A DNA stretch of 14,722 nucleotides. It comes from Christensenella sp. UBA7707. Lineage in GTDB: Bacteria; Bacillota; Clostridia; Christensenellales; CAG-138. The number at the start of each line of letters is the position of its first letter. Position 1 is the stretch's first letter. Positions 1 through 11,840 of the stretch are shown piece after piece. Both the position numbers and the translations under genes were made by a program. The notes beneath the pieces are model-generated. The model was not told the DNA's origin. It worked only from the letters and a program-made list of their open reading frames with translations, and ran no database searches. The stretch spans positions 1 through 14,722 of the forward strand of contig DLFZ01000186.1 in NCBI GenBank assembly GCA_002482435.1. The letters run 5' to 3'.

Positions 1-735
1 AGAGCCGGCAAGTCCGGCAGGGCGGTTACGCTTTGCTGCGGCGGCCGCCAGCTTGACGCGCTGTTCCAGCTCAAGCGCTTTGTGCGCTGTGACATTACAA
101 AAATGAGCCTGCCCAGCGCCGCCGACATTCAAAGAAGCGGCGAGGAGGCCATTTTGGAGTCCCTGAAGGATGCGGTGGACGCGGGCGAATTCAGCTACGC
201 GGCACTTGTTGAAACGCTCGAAGGCCAAGGCTTCGACGCGAAGGACATCGCCGCCGCCGCGCTTCAGCTTTGCTATGGCAAGCCGCGCGAAACCGTTGCC
301 CTTTCGGAGCCGCGAAGCCACAGCAACTTTGAAAAGAAGGAACGCGTGTTTGGAGAAACCGCCGACGTGCCGAACATCGCTTTGAGCATCGGCCGTTCGA
401 GCGGCGTTGCGCCCGCGCACATTGTGGCAGCCATCGCGCAGGCTACAAAGCTCACGGGCGGTGACATCGGCAAAATCGAGATCCGCGAGGACATCACGCT
501 TGTCGCGGTGCCGGAAAGCGAGCTTCATAACGTTCTTAACGCCATGAACCGCTCCAAAATTCGCGGCAGGCAGGTTTCCGCTGCGCCCTACGTATACAAA
601 AAGCCGGAAAACCGTTCGCGTCCCTATGGCCGCGACCATGCCGACAGGCGTGAATACAGCGATAGGCGCGAATATGGCGACCGCAAGGATTATCGCCGTC
701 TGCCGCCCAAAAAGCGCGCGGAAACAAGGCGGTAA
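1..735 (+). CDS. DEAD-box ATP-dependent RNA helicase, C-terminal part (5' truncated by window edge)
   Basis: Frame 1 is open from the first base, so the gene begins outside the window and 244 C-terminal residues remain. The first residues, RAGKSGRAVTL, match the end of helicase motif VI (HRIGRTGRAGKxG), which binds ATP and RNA in the second RecA-like domain. Residues about 125-198 (from NIALSIGRSSG to SAAPY) match the DbpA-type RNA-binding domain: a glycine-rich first strand, the conserved GDIGKIEI segment, then a strand with acidic residues. The last 45 residues are a basic tail rich in R, Y and D with repeated RREY-like units, probably a further RNA-binding extension. Family knowledge suggests a CsdA/DeaD- or CshA-like helicase in ribosome assembly or mRNA decay. 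I cannot tell which, because the DEAD motif itself is missing. The gene ends at TAA 733-735, 64 bases before a hairpin terminator. Confidence 0.93.
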   Translation, partial: RAGKSGRAVTLCCGGRQLDALFQLKRFVRCDITKMSLPSAADIQRSGEEAILESLKDAVDAGEFSYAALVETLEGQGFDAKDIAAAALQLCYGKPRETVALSEPRSHSNFEKKERVFGETADVPNIALSIGRSSGVAPAHIVAAIAQATKLTGGDIGKIEIREDITLVAVPESELHNVLNAMNRSKIRGRQVSAAPYVYKKPENRSRPYGRDHADRREYSDRREYGDRKDYRRLPPKKRAETRR

Positions 736-799
736 GCAAAAAGCTGCTTTGTGTGCGGCGAAGGCCGCAACGATGTGCCGCATAAAACACGTTGATTTC

Positions 800-832
800 G
801 GGCAGACAATGTTGTCTGCCCTTCACTTTATG
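800..832 (+). terminator. Rho-independent-type terminator after the helicase gene
   Basis: GGGCAGACA (800-808) pairs perfectly with TGTCTGCCC (813-821) around the loop ATGT, giving a 9-bp stem. The following bases (TTCACTTTAT) are T-rich but not a clean U-run, so termination may be partial. Confidence 0.7.
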
Positions 833-875
833 CCAATGGCTGTACATGCCACAAAAACGGTATCTTATGCCGGTG

Positions 876-904
876 TTCGCATTTTGAAAAAATTTTGCTA
901 TAAT
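876..904 (+). promoter_or_regulatory. Extended -10 promoter for the hydrogenase/methyltransferase unit
   Basis: TGCTATAAT (896-904) is a perfect extended -10 (TGnTATAAT). A weak -35, TTCGCA, lies at 876-881 with a 17-bp spacer. A start near 911 gives a leader of about 20 nt containing the ribosome binding site GGGAGG before the ATG at 932. Confidence 0.75.
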
Positions 905-931
905 GGGCACAGCAACAAAGGGAGGCAAACG

Positions 932-2188
932 ATGGTTACATTTCAGGAACTTTACGAAAGGCTCTTAAGCGCTTCGGCACAAAACCGTATAGAGGGTGAA
1001 GTAAGCGCGCTCAAGGCGGACGAGTTCGACCCGCATCATCTTGACTGCCTTTTGAACCCAAAGGGGCACCCTGTGGTGCTTCGCACCGGCGATTGCCTTT
1101 GCGGCAAGGAAGAAAACCCGCCGTGCGCCGTAAGGTGCCTGTTTGACGCGATCTTTCGCGATGAGAAGGGCGCTGTAAGCATCGACCCGATGCGTTGCGT
1201 GGGTTGCGGGGACTGCATCGACGCGTGCGCTTGCAAAAAACTGACCGAGAGCAGGGACATTCTTCCCGCGCTCGAGGCCATCCACAGCGCTCGTGCGCCC
1301 GTATACGCTTTAATCGCTCCGGCGTTTATCAACCAGTTTACCGAGGAAGTTACCCCGGGCAAGCTTCGCGCGGCGTTCAAGCGGCTGGGCTTTACGGGAA
1401 TGGTGGAAGTTGCTCTGTTTGCGGACATCCTTACGCTCAAGGAGGCGATCGAGTTCGATAGAAACATCGTCACCGAAAAGGATTACCAACTTACAAGCTG
1501 CTGCTGTCCTATGTGGATCGCCATGATCCGCAAGGTCTATCACGAGCTGATGCCCCATGTGCCCGCGGCGGTGTCGCCCATGGTGGCGTGCGGACGTGCC
1601 ATAAAAACGCTGCATCCAGATGCTGTCACCGTGTTCATCGGCCCGTGCATGGCCAAAAAAGCGGAGGCGCGCGAAAAAGACATTGCGGACGCGGTGGATT
1701 ATGTGCTCACCTTCCATGAAATTCGCGACGTGTTCAACGCGGCGCGCATTGACCCCGCAAAAATGAGTGAGGACGAACGCGACCATTCCTCCCGCGCGGG
1801 CAGGATTTATGCCACCACCGGCGGCGTGAGCGAGGCCGTGCAAAAAACCGTGAAGCGCATCAATCCCGATCGTACCATTGCCGTGCATGCTATGCAGGCC
1901 GACGGTGTAGTTGCGTGCAAGGCGATGCTCAGCGACCTTAAGGAAGGTAAAATCTCCGCGAACTTTATCGAGGGCATGGGCTGCGTGGGCGGCTGCGTGG
2001 GCGGCCCCAAGGTTTTGATCCCGAAAGAGGAGGGGCGCAAAAACGTGTACGAGTACGGTGACAAAGCCGCGTACCAAACGCCTGCCGAAAACCCCTATGT
2101 GGTCGAGCTTTTGAAGCGGCTTGGTTTTGAAACCCTTGAAAGCCTTGTGGAGCACAGCGATATGTTCACGCGCGACTTCCGGCAGTGA
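932..2188 (+). CDS. Monomeric [FeFe]-hydrogenase homologue with N-terminal ferredoxin-type domain
   Basis: Start chosen at ATG 932, which has GGGAGG nine bases upstream and a promoter at 896-904; the open frame extends further upstream only over the helicase tail. The product has 418 residues. Cysteines 55, 57, 65 and 69, then C89-x2-C92-x2-C95-x3-C99, form a ferredoxin-like region with one canonical [4Fe-4S] motif. The H-cluster domain follows: L1 TSCCCPMW (188-195), SPMVACGRAIK (215-225), L2 PCMAKKAE (238-245) and L3 MGCVGGCVGGP (349-359). All four H-cluster ligand cysteines are present (C192 or a neighbour, C239, C351, C355), so H2 activation or sensing is plausible. No signal peptide, PAS domain or small-subunit tail is seen, so it is probably cytoplasmic. 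The subgroup is uncertain; the layout recalls the B-type monomeric enzymes. TGA 2186-2188 is 10 bases before the methyltransferase ATG, so the two are co-transcribed. Confidence 0.88.
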   Translation: MVTFQELYERLLSASAQNRIEGEVSALKADEFDPHHLDCLLNPKGHPVVLRTGDCLCGKEENPPCAVRCLFDAIFRDEKGAVSIDPMRCVGCGDCIDACACKKLTESRDILPALEAIHSARAPVYALIAPAFINQFTEEVTPGKLRAAFKRLGFTGMVEVALFADILTLKEAIEFDRNIVTEKDYQLTSCCCPMWIAMIRKVYHELMPHVPAAVSPMVACGRAIKTLHPDAVTVFIGPCMAKKAEAREKDIADAVDYVLTFHEIRDVFNAARIDPAKMSEDERDHSSRAGRIYATTGGVSEAVQKTVKRINPDRTIAVHAMQADGVVACKAMLSDLKEGKISANFIEGMGCVGGCVGGPKVLIPKEEGRKNVYEYGDKAAYQTPAENPYVVELLKRLGFETLESLVEHSDMFTRDFRQ

Positions 2189-6683: not shown

Positions 6684-7016
6684 ATGCTATTTCAGTTGGG
6701 TTCTGCGTTGCTGGACGCATGCGTGCTGTCGGTTTTGGACAAAGAGGATACCTACGGTTACGTTCTCACGCAGAGCGTAAAGGAGGTTGTGGACATTTCA
6801 GAGTCCACGCTGTATCCGGTACTCCGAAGGCTGCAAAAAGACGGGCTTTTGACTACTTACGACCAGCCCATATCCGGCAGACTTCGCCGTTACTACGCCA
6901 TTACGGATGGCGGGCGCAAGGCGCTTGAAGAATACCGCCTGTCGTGGGCGGAGTACAAACAAAAGGTGGAGCACTTATTGATCGGGGGTGGAAGCGATGC
7001 GAAAAACGAGGGTTAG
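6684..7016 (+). CDS. PadR family transcriptional regulator
   Basis: 110 residues, ATG at 6684 preceded by GGGAGGTGAGCAA, a strong ribosome binding site. The sequence is a PadR winged helix: LDACVLSVLDKEDTYGYVLTQ (helix 1 and the conserved YGY), then ISESTLYPVLRRLQKDGLL (about 38-56, the recognition helix) and GRLRRYYAITDGGRKAL (about 65-81, the wing with its usual Arg/Tyr run). The C-terminal helix WAEYKQKVEHLL would form the dimer. This is the short PadR-s1 type. It most likely represses its own promoter through the palindrome at 6547-6569, and perhaps the genes downstream. The next gene encodes a HAAS/DUF4097 protein, a pairing commonly seen with PadR regulators in Firmicutes, which suggests control of an envelope or stress function. 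Confidence 0.92.
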   Translation: MLFQLGSALLDACVLSVLDKEDTYGYVLTQSVKEVVDISESTLYPVLRRLQKDGLLTTYDQPISGRLRRYYAITDGGRKALEEYRLSWAEYKQKVEHLLIGGGSDAKNEG

Positions 7017-7115
7017 TCCGCGCGGAGAAAAGCGCGTGCAGCGCTTTGCATGGATTGTTGAATGTATGAAGGAAACCGAGCTTCAAAAACAAAAATTACT
7101 GGGAGGGTTACGGTA

Positions 7116-8066
7116 ATGCGCAGGAGGGAATTTTTAACGCGTCTGGAAGCGGCGCTTGTAACGCTTCCGTATGAGGAGCGTCAGGCGGCGCTGCGCTATT
7201 ACGAAGAGTACCTTCTGGACGCTGGCGAGGAAAACGAAGCGGAGGCCATCGCCGAGCTTGGCGCTCCTGAGGCGCTTGCGGATAAAATTGTTCGCGAATC
7301 CCGCGCTTACGCAAAGGAAAGCGCAAAGGAGCAAACCGCACCCGATCAAAGCGGGGCGGAAAAGCTGAACTCGTTTTCAAACATAGAGCTCGATCTTGCC
7401 AATGCCTCCGTTACGCTTTTCAAGGGGGAAGCTTACTCCATCGCGCTCGATTTCCCGGAGGGCTACCCGCTGCCCGAAGTGGGTGTTCGCGACAATACCC
7501 TATACGTAAAGGAAAAGAAGTTCGCGCACTTCTCATTCTTTGGGTTCCGCTCGTTTGTGTTTGTAAAAAAGAGCGAGGTCGCCATTACGCTGCCCGATGC
7601 GCAGTATGAGCGCTTCTCGTTCGATATGGTCAACGGCTCGCTCAAGGTTCCCGCGCTTCGCGTGCGCGAATTGAAGGCGGAGAGCGTTAACGGCGGTATC
7701 ACCGTGGATGGGGTGAGCGGCGAGCGCCTCTCCCTCAACAGCGTCAACGGTAAGCTGAGCGCGTCCGACATCGCCATGACAGACGGCTGCAAGTGCAGCA
7801 CCGTGAACGGCGGCATCGGGCTGAGCGGCAGCATCCGCGGCAAAGTGCATGCCGACGCAGTCAATGGCGGCATCCATATTGCAATTCCGCTTTCCGGCAA
7901 GGATTATAACCTCCGTCTTTCTACCGTTTCCGGCTCCGTGCGTGTGAACGGGCAGAAGATGAGCAAATCCTTCAACGTGCAAAACAACTCCGCCAACAGC
8001 GTGCATGCGGATACGGTAAACGGCGGCATTCAGGTGGAGTTTGAAAGCGGTACCATCGTGATTTAA
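7116..8066 (+). CDS. HAAS (DUF1700) plus DUF4097 beta-repeat protein
   Basis: Start chosen at ATG 7116, which has GGGAGGG (7101-7107) upstream; an in-frame ATG at 7062 has no such site. The product has 316 residues. Residues 1-62 are a HAAS/DUF1700 helical domain (MRRREFLTRLEAAL, LPYEERQAALRYYEEYLLDA, IAELGAPEALADKIV), which usually accompanies PadR regulators and may contact them. A charged linker follows (63-85). From about 86 the protein is beta-rich and matches the DUF4097/toast-rack class, with repeated turns: VNGS 172, VNGG 191, VNGK 210, VNGG 230, VNGG 249, VSGS 271 and VNGG 301, spaced mostly 19-20 residues. No transmembrane helix is visible, unlike many HAAS proteins. It is likely a partner of the preceding PadR protein in the same transcript. 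The 99-nt gap after padR shows nothing else. Confidence 0.85.
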   Translation: MRRREFLTRLEAALVTLPYEERQAALRYYEEYLLDAGEENEAEAIAELGAPEALADKIVRESRAYAKESAKEQTAPDQSGAEKLNSFSNIELDLANASVTLFKGEAYSIALDFPEGYPLPEVGVRDNTLYVKEKKFAHFSFFGFRSFVFVKKSEVAITLPDAQYERFSFDMVNGSLKVPALRVRELKAESVNGGITVDGVSGERLSLNSVNGKLSASDIAMTDGCKCSTVNGGIGLSGSIRGKVHADAVNGGIHIAIPLSGKDYNLRLSTVSGSVRVNGQKMSKSFNVQNNSANSVHADTVNGGIQVEFESGTIVI

Positions 8067-9889: not shown

Positions 9890-11662
9890 TCAGCTCCCGA
9901 TGAGTTTTTTCAGCTTCCAAAGCGTTTGCGCATCCACGAGCGCGGCAACCTTCGTGCCATCCTCCGCATGCTCCTCCGACAAAAGCTTTCCTTCCGCGCG
10001 GATGAGCGACATCGCTTCGTATTTGCCGTAGGGAATGAGAAGCTCCACCTTTTGACGCGACGCGCCAAGCGCGTGTTCCACCATGTTCAAAAGCTCGGGG
10101 ATCCCTTCGCCGTTCATAGCGCTTATGTAAATGGCGTTTTCGCGCGCAACGGGCTTTTCGATAAGCCTGTCAACCTTATTGTAAACCTCAATGCGCGGCG
10201 TGTCGAGTGTGCCGAGCTTTGACAGCACCTCTTCCACCACGTTTTTTTGCTCCATCAGCTCGGGAGAGGAGGCGTCGACCACATGCAAAATAAGGTCTGC
10301 TTCCTTTACTTCCTCAAGGGTCGATTGGAATGCCTCCACAAGGTCATGCGGAAGCTTGCTGATAAAGCCTACGGTGTCCGAAAACAGTACCGCCGTACCG
10401 CTTGCAAGCTCCACCTGACGCACCACGGGGTCGAGCGTTGCGAAAAGCTTGTTTTCCGCAAGCACGTCCGCGCCGGAAACCGTGTTGAGAAGGGTGGATT
10501 TTCCGGTGTTGGTGTAGCCTACGAGCGCAACGAGCGGAATCTTATTTTTCTCGCGCCGCTCGCGCCGCAGTCCGCGCTGCTTTTCGATTTCCGAAAGCTC
10601 CGTTTCGAGTTCGTAGATGCGCCTCTTGATCCTGCGGCGGTCGATTTCAAGCTTGCGTTCGCCCGGGCCGCGCGTGCCGATGCCGCCTCCCTGCTGCGAA
10701 AGGGTGCGGCCTTGCCCCAAGAGGTGGGGGAGGCTGTATTTGAGCTGCGCAAGCTCCACCTGAAGCTTGCCCTCGCGCGACTGCGCGCGCGCGGCAAAAA
10801 TGTCGAGGATTAATGTCGTGCGGTCGATCACGGCGGTGTTGGTGGCGGCTTCCAAGTTTCGCACCTGAACGGCGCTCAGTTCGTCGTCAAAAATGATGAG
10901 ATCCGCTTCAAGCTCGCTCACCGAAAGGGAAAGCTCTTCGGCCTTGCCGCTGCCGATGTAGGTCGCGTTGTCGATCTCCTTGCGTTTTTGGGTAAACTGG
11001 CCAACGACCTCCGCACCCGCGGAAAGCGCAAGCTCCTTAAGCTCTGCCATAGAGTCAAAGCCTCCGCCGTTTTCAAGCCCCACAAGCACCGCGCGCTGCG
11101 GCTTGGATTCGAGCACCTCCTTGGTGCTCGATTTAAGCAGCGCGTCCGCCGCGTAGATTTCCTGCATAAGCATGCGTTGGGGGAGTTTATAGGGGCGAAG
11201 CGGCCCCAGAAGCACCACGGAGCGCTCGTTTCCCTCCATTTCTCCAAGGTAAGCCGCGTAAAGGGAGAGCGGGTTTCCCTCCGCGCTCACGCCCATGGAA
11301 GCCATGCTGTCGAGCCGCGCGCTTCGAAGCGTGCCAAGGTCCACGCCCGACGGGCGCGAATCGCCGTTGGGGTGGGTATGGATGCAGCGAACGCCACTAA
11401 GCCTGTCTTGGTTTCTGACAAGGCGAAGCGAAGGCATGCTCACCTTACCCGTATCGCCCAAAGAAACGTCCACCACACGCCCGTCGCGCGCGATGTAAAC
11501 GGAAACCTCGCGCCGAAGCCTTGCGGTAAACTCCGCCATCTGCGACAAAAGCTCAAAGGTGGCAAACTCATCTTGGTTCATTTTTACGTCGTAAAGGAGC
11601 GCCATCTGCTCCAAAATGGAGTCTTTTACGCCCTGTGTATTTCCGTTGACTTTTTGCGCCAT
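9890..11662 (-). CDS. hflX: GTPase HflX with an N-terminal JAMM/RadC-like domain
   Basis: Start chosen at ATG 11662, with GAGG six bases upstream; the frame is open to 11794 but only across the leader repeat. The product has 590 residues, about 170-190 longer than classical HflX. Residues 191-590 are HflX: LVGLENGG and YIGSGKAEEL (235-244), the glycine-rich QQGGGIGTRGPGERKLE (323-339), then G1 GYTNTGKST (382-390), G3 DTVGF (429-433), G4 NKVD (495-498) and G5 SAM (514-516). HflX binds 50S subunits and splits stalled or hibernating ribosomes. Residues 1-190 hold the sequence REVSVYIARDG (51-61) and IHTHPNGDSRPSGVD (94-108), which together give the metal-binding signature E52, H95, H97, S105, D108 of JAMM/MPN+ enzymes. 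The leader holds repeat copy B and an extended -10 at 11717-11725. The small membrane gene behind it shares the transcript. Confidence 0.94.
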   Translation of the reverse strand: MAQKVNGNTQGVKDSILEQMALLYDVKMNQDEFATFELLSQMAEFTARLRREVSVYIARDGRVVDVSLGDTGKVSMPSLRLVRNQDRLSGVRCIHTHPNGDSRPSGVDLGTLRSARLDSMASMGVSAEGNPLSLYAAYLGEMEGNERSVVLLGPLRPYKLPQRMLMQEIYAADALLKSSTKEVLESKPQRAVLVGLENGGGFDSMAELKELALSAGAEVVGQFTQKRKEIDNATYIGSGKAEELSLSVSELEADLIIFDDELSAVQVRNLEAATNTAVIDRTTLILDIFAARAQSREGKLQVELAQLKYSLPHLLGQGRTLSQQGGGIGTRGPGERKLEIDRRRIKRRIYELETELSEIEKQRGLRRERREKNKIPLVALVGYTNTGKSTLLNTVSGADVLAENKLFATLDPVVRQVELASGTAVLFSDTVGFISKLPHDLVEAFQSTLEEVKEADLILHVVDASSPELMEQKNVVEEVLSKLGTLDTPRIEVYNKVDRLIEKPVARENAIYISAMNGEGIPELLNMVEHALGASRQKVELLIPYGKYEAMSLIRAEGKLLSEEHAEDGTKVAALVDAQTLWKLKKLIGS

Positions 11663-11716
11663 AAATTCCTCGTAAAATAGATTCCGCAATCCTGCGGTTA
11701 AGGTATTGTAGTTGTT

Positions 11717-11725: not shown

Positions 11726-11840
11726 TGGAAGCGAAGCGACTATGGTAGAATCCGCGCATGTGCGTTTGGCCTTAAGGCCAAAAATCGCACACACATAAGA
11801 ATAAGCAGTATAATAGCCGCTTGCGGCTATTATACCATAG
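11723..11840 (-). repeat. Structured leader repeat, copy B (upstream of hflX)
   Basis: Read on the minus strand it starts with CTATGGTATAATAGCC. A perfect palindrome follows: GTATAATAGCCGC (11835-11823), TT, GCGGCTATTATAC (11820-11808). Next is a two-part hairpin: outer stem GTGTGTGCG (11794-11786) with CGCACATGC (11764-11756), and inner stem TTTGGCC-TTAA-GGCCAAA (11782-11765). It ends with GCGGATTCTACCATAG and TCGCTTCGCTTCCATGG. Order and sequence match copy A at 4242-4351. It ends 60 nt before the hflX ATG. On the plus strand the segment is flanked by near-identical TATTATACCATGG (11716-11728 region) and TATTATACCATAG (11828-11840). Confidence 0.7.

Follow-up and report, generated by a model that had tools for sequence, protein, structure and literature searches.

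The window analysed here is a stretch of 14,722 nucleotides from Christensenella sp. UBA7707 (assembly GCA_002482435.1, contig DLFZ01000186.1), and it contains an hflX gene whose product carries an N-terminal extension with a JAMM-type motif (Table 1). HflX is a main bacterial factor for the splitting of stalled ribosomes. The product matches TIGR03156 at residues 191-531, scoring 462 bits where the cut-off is 216.75, and the extension is followed, in order, by the GTP-bdg_N, GTP-bdg_M, GTPase and HflX_C domains. With the GYTNTGKS, DTVGF and NKVD motifs and the GGGIGTRGPGE loop all intact, the HflX core is whole. Residues 191-590 share all of these domains, the GTPase motifs and the loop with HflX of E. 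coli, B. subtilis and mycobacteria and with HflX/HflXr of Listeria, and membership of this family suggests that the protein binds and splits ribosomes as they do.

Several other features of the window were recorded. Upstream (5′) of hflX lies a perfect 13-nt inverted repeat (window 11808-11835; GTATAATAGCCGC, with a 2-nt gap) with TATAAT on both strands, and a second TGGTATAAT occurs closer to the hflX start; the repeat is possibly a regulated or divergent promoter. Farther away, a gene at window 626-2188 encodes a [FeFe]-hydrogenase large-subunit C-terminal domain with a ferredoxin-like part and lies beside a methyltransferase gene, a frame at 82-735, near the window edge, matches the DeaD dimerization domain and the DbpA RNA-binding domain and so corresponds to the C-terminal portion of a DEAD-box helicase for RNA, and a PadR regulator is followed by a HAAS and Toastrack (DUF4097) protein at 6684-8066.

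Table 1. Coordinates in the window of the hflX gene, its domains and the candidate motif residues
Feature	Position	Strand	Remarks
hflX with N-terminal JAMM-type domain	9890..11662	-	590 aa plus stop, ATG start
Shine-Dalgarno-like GAGGA	11667..11671	-	four bases 5′ of the hflX ATG
N-terminal extension, residues 1-190	11093..11662	-	outside alignments of solved HflX chains
NGNTQGVK, residues 6-13	11624..11647	-	conserved, outside the RadC-like core
RadC-aligning core, about residues 44-125	11288..11533	-	81 columns, profile-profile comparison
E52, candidate catalytic glutamate	11507..11509	-	
H95-T-H97-P-NGDSRP-S105-GV-D108	11339..11380	-	candidate metal site and catalytic serine
HflX N-terminal domain GTP-bdg_N, PF13167	10793..11056	-	
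HflX middle region GTP-bdg_M, PF16360	10553..10789	-	with the GGGIGTRGPGE loop
GTPase domain MMR_HSR1	10175..10531	-	with GYTNTGKS, DTVGF, NKVD

The N-terminal extension and its motif

An earlier note on this DNA had proposed that the first 190 residues have no counterpart in classical HflX and that they contain a complete JAMM/MPN+ signature, and both proposals are borne out. Alignments of solved HflX chains to the protein begin at residue 178 or later and none covers residues 1-177, which identifies residues 1-190 as an addition to HflX; compared with the HflX proteins named above, the window's carries an additional N-terminal domain of ∼190 aa with a JAMM motif. The pattern E...HxHx7Sx2D is present in order within it, and E52, H95, T96, H97, P98, S105 and D108 all stand at the positions that the note gave them. 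When the letters of the domain were shuffled 200,000 times, E-x(30-60)-HxH-x7-S-x2-D turned up in this order 9 times, and the glutamate is separated from the first histidine by 43 residues, as against 50 in six RadC rows that were compared. Conservation provides a stronger test of the motif than letter shuffling does.

The same note likened the residues around the serine to the PS form seen in RadC. This is true of the window's protein, which has P104, but not in general, the AMSH-like LS form being commoner: of 127 aligned rows, 109 have L at position 104 and 17 have P, the window being counted three times among the latter. The NGNTQGVK segment is kept in most N-domains, its G7 being found in 126 of 127 aligned rows.

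N-terminal extensions of HflX as such have been described before. A 2025 review reports them in several Clostridium species, with no mention of a JAMM domain in the passages cited here (PMC12493154), and the same passages describe a mycobacterial extension that is added at the same point of HflX, measures 39-58 aa, again with no JAMM motif mentioned, touches both uL16 and H38, and extends to the H69-71 junction (PMC12493154). A description of an HflX-JAMM fusion was not found in the open-licence literature; the text matches to "jamm" in the relevant parts of PMC10502375 and PMC6514570 are to the word "jammed" and not to the domain.

Conservation of the motif among homologues

Conservation was assessed in 46 N-domains sharing 22-60% identity with that of the window, chosen at below 60% mutual identity with the motif-less locus L131 left out, a set that describes the intact form. 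Nine of the 187 columns are invariant (E52, G61, G69, H95, T96, H97, P98, S105 and D108), and all five motif residues fall within these nine, an outcome with a probability of 7e-8 if columns were alike. The E and S show the same invariance as the H, H and D; in known JAMM enzymes the E and S are not metal ligands.

Searches beyond this set favour motif-bearing copies, as N-domain profiles under-find motif-less ones, and their counts are to be read in that light. With the extension as query 1008 proteins were obtained, and all 120 of the matches listed (the window's protein included) have E, H, H, S and D. Starting instead from a distant member gave 2529, the pattern fitting all 117 that were new among the 120 matches listed. 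A named genome collection yielded 103 loci encoding a relative, located by two peptide patterns of which one contains HTHP itself, and the motif is kept in the best 80 of the 103. In genome surveys the motif is intact in 47 of 48 phylum matches and in 88 of 89 class HflX loci examined, the window's genome being in both sets and a contig-end match in genome G537 falling outside the 89. The earlier note had proposed conservation of E52, H95, H97, S105 and D108 as a test of its reading, and nearly all homologues found by these motif-favouring searches pass it. Four loci (L163, L206, L217 and L242) have L in place of P98 with the five motif residues intact.

At six loci (L131, L140, L141, L142, L145 and L231) the domain is present with two or more motif residues lost, at L241 D108 is replaced by N, and L143 is a doubtful motif-less case. 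Fifteen long HflX frames without a match to the first profile, picked by hand from the phylum list, included four with a recognisable motif-less domain (L140, L141, L142 and L145), the doubtful L143 and ten with none; at L136 the frame examined was not hflX, and G179 and G277, from the family of L141 and L142, lie outside the 15. Because these four further copies were found by frame length, the phylum profile scan under-counts copies of this kind, and the phylum sample holds at least 47 intact copies together with five that are motif-less (the four and L131). JAMM domains exist in catalytic (MPN+) and non-catalytic (MPN-) forms. The six motif-less copies are apparent pseudo-enzyme forms, and to judge from its sequences HflX seems to have both catalytic-type and non-catalytic-type JAMM domains. 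That the domain persists after loss of the motif indicates that part of its role is not catalytic.

Relation to known JAMM proteins

Matches of the window's domain to JAMM family models stay below threshold. No Pfam family exceeded its cut-off on this domain, Prok-JAB coming closest (E 0.0022, 18.3 bits against 25), and RadC models gave no match to it at E up to 0.05. When single members were searched, Prok-JAB matched 18 and RadC (PF04002) 11 of the 46 at E up to 0.1 (best E for RadC 5e-4), NCBI RadC models matched 3 and 1 of the 46 (best E 0.033), and the serine peptidase DegS matched one member weakly (E 0.008; E 0.38 for the window's own domain). Sub-threshold Prok-JAB matches lie inside three fusion hflX genes (G011, G050 and G097), with a RadC match in G682, and scans with N-domain profiles also strike four RadC-like genes (L236-L239). 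We rejected the possibility that the extension is RadC proper, given that the window's domain has no RadC match at E up to 0.05 and a separate RadC gene (L254) is present in the same genome.

Among solved structures, a profile of the full 46 domains matched AMSH-LP best (E 1.1e-4), followed by Sst2, AMSH and, weakly, Prp8, together with two chloroplast S19 chains at chance level (E 0.44-0.82). None of the alignments starts before profile position 69, which leaves E52 outside them. A profile of the 22 motif columns retrieved 19 sequences from the PDB (E up to 10), all of them JAMM/MPN (AMSH-LP, AMSH, Sst2, AfJAMM and its AF2198 entry, RadC 2QLC and Prp8). The full profile scored above the motif-only profile for AMSH-LP (25.2 versus 22.0 bits), Sst2 (23.9 versus 17.7) and Prp8 (14.8 versus 11.8) and below it for AMSH/STAMBP (20.7 versus 21.9), and it lost AfJAMM and RadC 2QLC altogether. 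AMSH-type JAMM deubiquitinases are eukaryotic and act on ubiquitin chains. The extension shares IHTHP......LS.VDL with AMSH, AMSH-LP and Sst2, its best solved-structure matches, but unlike them it is bacterial and tied to a ribosome GTPase, and the alignment to them stops short of the catalytic E.

A profile-profile comparison with 23 RadC proteins (23 of 30 loci with HxHPSG in frame) gave a probability of 92% and an E of 7e-7 over 81 columns, with a score of 44.8, compared with at most 17.65 for 20 column-shuffled RadC profiles and 12.6 and 9.6 for HflX's own domains as controls; E52 falls on the E of RadC, a pairing that was not imposed. Prok-JAB, represented by 17 loci picked by motif, gave a weak match (score 21.9 with shuffles at most 15.95, probability 6.5%, 20 columns), and RadC against Prok-JAB, two known relatives, scored 26.95. 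When the motif was kept and the RadC flanks were shuffled, the real score was reached in 2 of 100 trials, and in 9 of 200 with larger alignments (39 motif-picked RadC rows and the 156 of 223 N-domain rows remaining after an 80% filter); with Prok-JAB flanks it was reached in 74 of 100. The relation to JAMM proteins thus depends chiefly on the motif and on how well it is conserved. The features shared with the RadC family (PF04002) are HxHP-x-G, S-xx-D and, upstream, an E with a conserved G after it, whereas RadC usually has HNHPSG where the HflX extension has HTHP; to judge from the flank shuffles, likeness to RadC beyond the motif, in the flanks, is marginal. The profile test that the earlier note suggested against JAB and RadC gives its reading partial support: RadC and AMSH-LP were both found, but the signal is mostly that of the motif and Pfam stayed below its cut-off. 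Residues 1-190 would, on these comparisons, adopt a JAB fold.

Distribution and evolution

The domain is found in 23 of 25 genomes of the window's family and 48 of 299 genomes of its phylum. Profile matches occur in 50 of 101 order genomes, five of the 50 having been checked for RadC-like and contig-end cases and the total including two RadC-like genes, with at least one cut by a contig end; they also occur in 91 of 291 class genomes, one match being RadC. HflX as defined by PF13167 is present in 228 of the 299 phylum genomes, with exactly one match in each of the 48 carriers, so the fusion protein is the HflX of its genome. Record titles of the named loci are nearly all Clostridia, Clostridiales, Eubacteriales or Christensenella(ceae), a few giving only Firmicutes, Bacillota or bacterium; by these titles many are of rumen and gut origin. 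A named strain among the carriers, from the search with a distant member, is Phosphitispora sp. TUW77. The suspicion in the earlier note that the fusion might be widespread is thus upheld for the clostridia by genome surveys within the phylum, and its suggestion that other clostridial HflX proteins also measure about 590 residues holds in part: the length is frequent among clostridia without being the rule, and many frames in the phylum list of HflX are 400-460 aa.

The N-domain and the HflX core have diverged together. Over 44 sequences, with L129-L131 left out, their identities are correlated (Mantel r 0.81, reached in 0 of 999 permutations), and r is 0.47 over the 900 pairs with cores below 60% identity, from which we conclude that the two parts have largely travelled together. 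On a tree of 91 HflX cores (55 with an intact domain, 6 motif-less including L143, and 30 without the domain), the domain label changes 8 times against a shuffled mean of 30.4, with 28 of 87 inner branches starred; the domain-free rows were chosen by hand, every eighth named locus was taken, and L020 and L076, being missing or short, were excluded. The tree, whose backbone is weak, is compatible with one old gain and several losses. A stand-alone gene for the domain was also sought, with a search that its profile length limited to short proteins, and no convincing case was seen among the 120 matches listed of 205 obtained with the 46-row N-domain profile: 40 have HflX core sequence, and many of the other 80, judged by eye from their tails, stop where HflX would go on or enter unrelated or frame-shifted sequence.

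Possible functions of the extension

The earlier note had suggested that the domain might cleave a peptide or isopeptide bond on a stalled complex, or might bind nucleic acid. We consider it reasonably likely that the sole HflX of these genomes has in its extension a metal-dependent hydrolase domain of the JAMM (MPN+) type and brings it to the 50S interface, where it would probably cut a peptide or amide bond. In such a domain a zinc ion would be bound by H95, H97 and D108, the activation of water would fall to E52, and S105 would stabilise the transition state, roles that we take over from the known JAMM mechanism. HflX would bring the domain to the 50S interface in binding there to split stalled 70S ribosomes, and by analogy with the mycobacterial extension, for which the cited passages describe the contacts given above (PMC12493154), the predicted JAMM domain may lie near uL16, H38 and H69-71. 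Its target would be a protein lodged on, or part of, the stalled ribosome, and cleavage may be coupled to splitting. A bolder version is possible, though we think it less likely than not: clostridial HflX might be a rescue factor with two activities, the GTPase splitting the stalled 70S while the built-in JAMM peptidase cuts a defined bond in an interface protein. The site cut might then lie in the tail of a ribosomal protein, in a factor for hibernation or rescue, or in a protein joined to the nascent chain, and the cut might mark or clear the large subunit.

The main alternative is that the extension is structural, binding RNA or protein and remodelling the 50S interface, with a metal that only stabilises it and nothing being cleaved. 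Motif-less copies still fused to HflX in several families are what such an extension could produce, and the mycobacterial extension, according to the passages cited, contacts the 50S and is needed for rRNA disordering (PMC12493154); however, the latter is much shorter and may not be homologous to the JAMM-type domain. Moreover, in 46 sequences that diverge to 22% identity (L131 left out) the E and S vary no more than the metal ligands do, and motifs are mostly either whole or broken at several positions, L241 with its single change of D to N being the exception. On balance we regard a purely structural extension as unlikely.

It is highly improbable that the domain removes a ubiquitin-like modifier of the ThiS/MoaD type, or a precursor tail, as some JAMM enzymes do. 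The idea draws on the closest solved match, AMSH-LP, which is a ubiquitin-chain hydrolase, but a small ThiS-family frame is present in 4 of 24 good-quality carrier genomes (G591, G684, G686 and G687) and absent from 20, a count that covers the ThiS family, would miss other modifier families, and leaves out two matches in long frames of G581 and G682 that look to us like TGS domains. A ThiS-type substrate is unlikely because those 20 genomes have no small ThiS protein, which also weakens the ubiquitin-like form of the cleavage that the earlier note proposed; the window's genome, at 68% completeness, cannot decide the matter alone, and ThiF-fold proteins, present in 39 of 41 relatives, do not discriminate. 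Nor did a recurrent small-protein neighbour stand out, and no substrate clue came from gene neighbours in up to 138 loci and 448 frames. The commonest neighbour groups, with names assigned by eye, are presumably sodium:alanine-symporter-like (20 loci), thymidylate-kinase-like (18) and SpoVK-like AAA proteins (14); of two further groups of 10, one is a short frame truncated where the locus stops and one lies mostly on the opposite strand.

Least probable of all is that an unrelated domain acquired this metal-binding pattern by chance or convergence. Although likeness beyond the motif is marginal for RadC and not established for Prok-JAB, and the full profile loses AfJAMM and RadC 2QLC, the five residues are invariant in 46 rows in the canonical order with an E-to-H spacing of 43 residues against 50 in the six RadC rows, the motif-only profile retrieves JAMM/MPN chains only, and E52 pairs with the E of RadC unprompted.

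If the extension is an active protease, part of the clostridia would couple ribosome splitting to proteolysis, with a substrate at the ribosome. The two-activity factor outlined above, if real, would be a bacterial ribosome-bound JAMM protease, and would loosely resemble the JAMM enzymes found in the proteasome lid and in the COP9 signalosome. HflX proteins with an intact domain, with a motif-less one and with none form a natural set on which the question can be tested directly.
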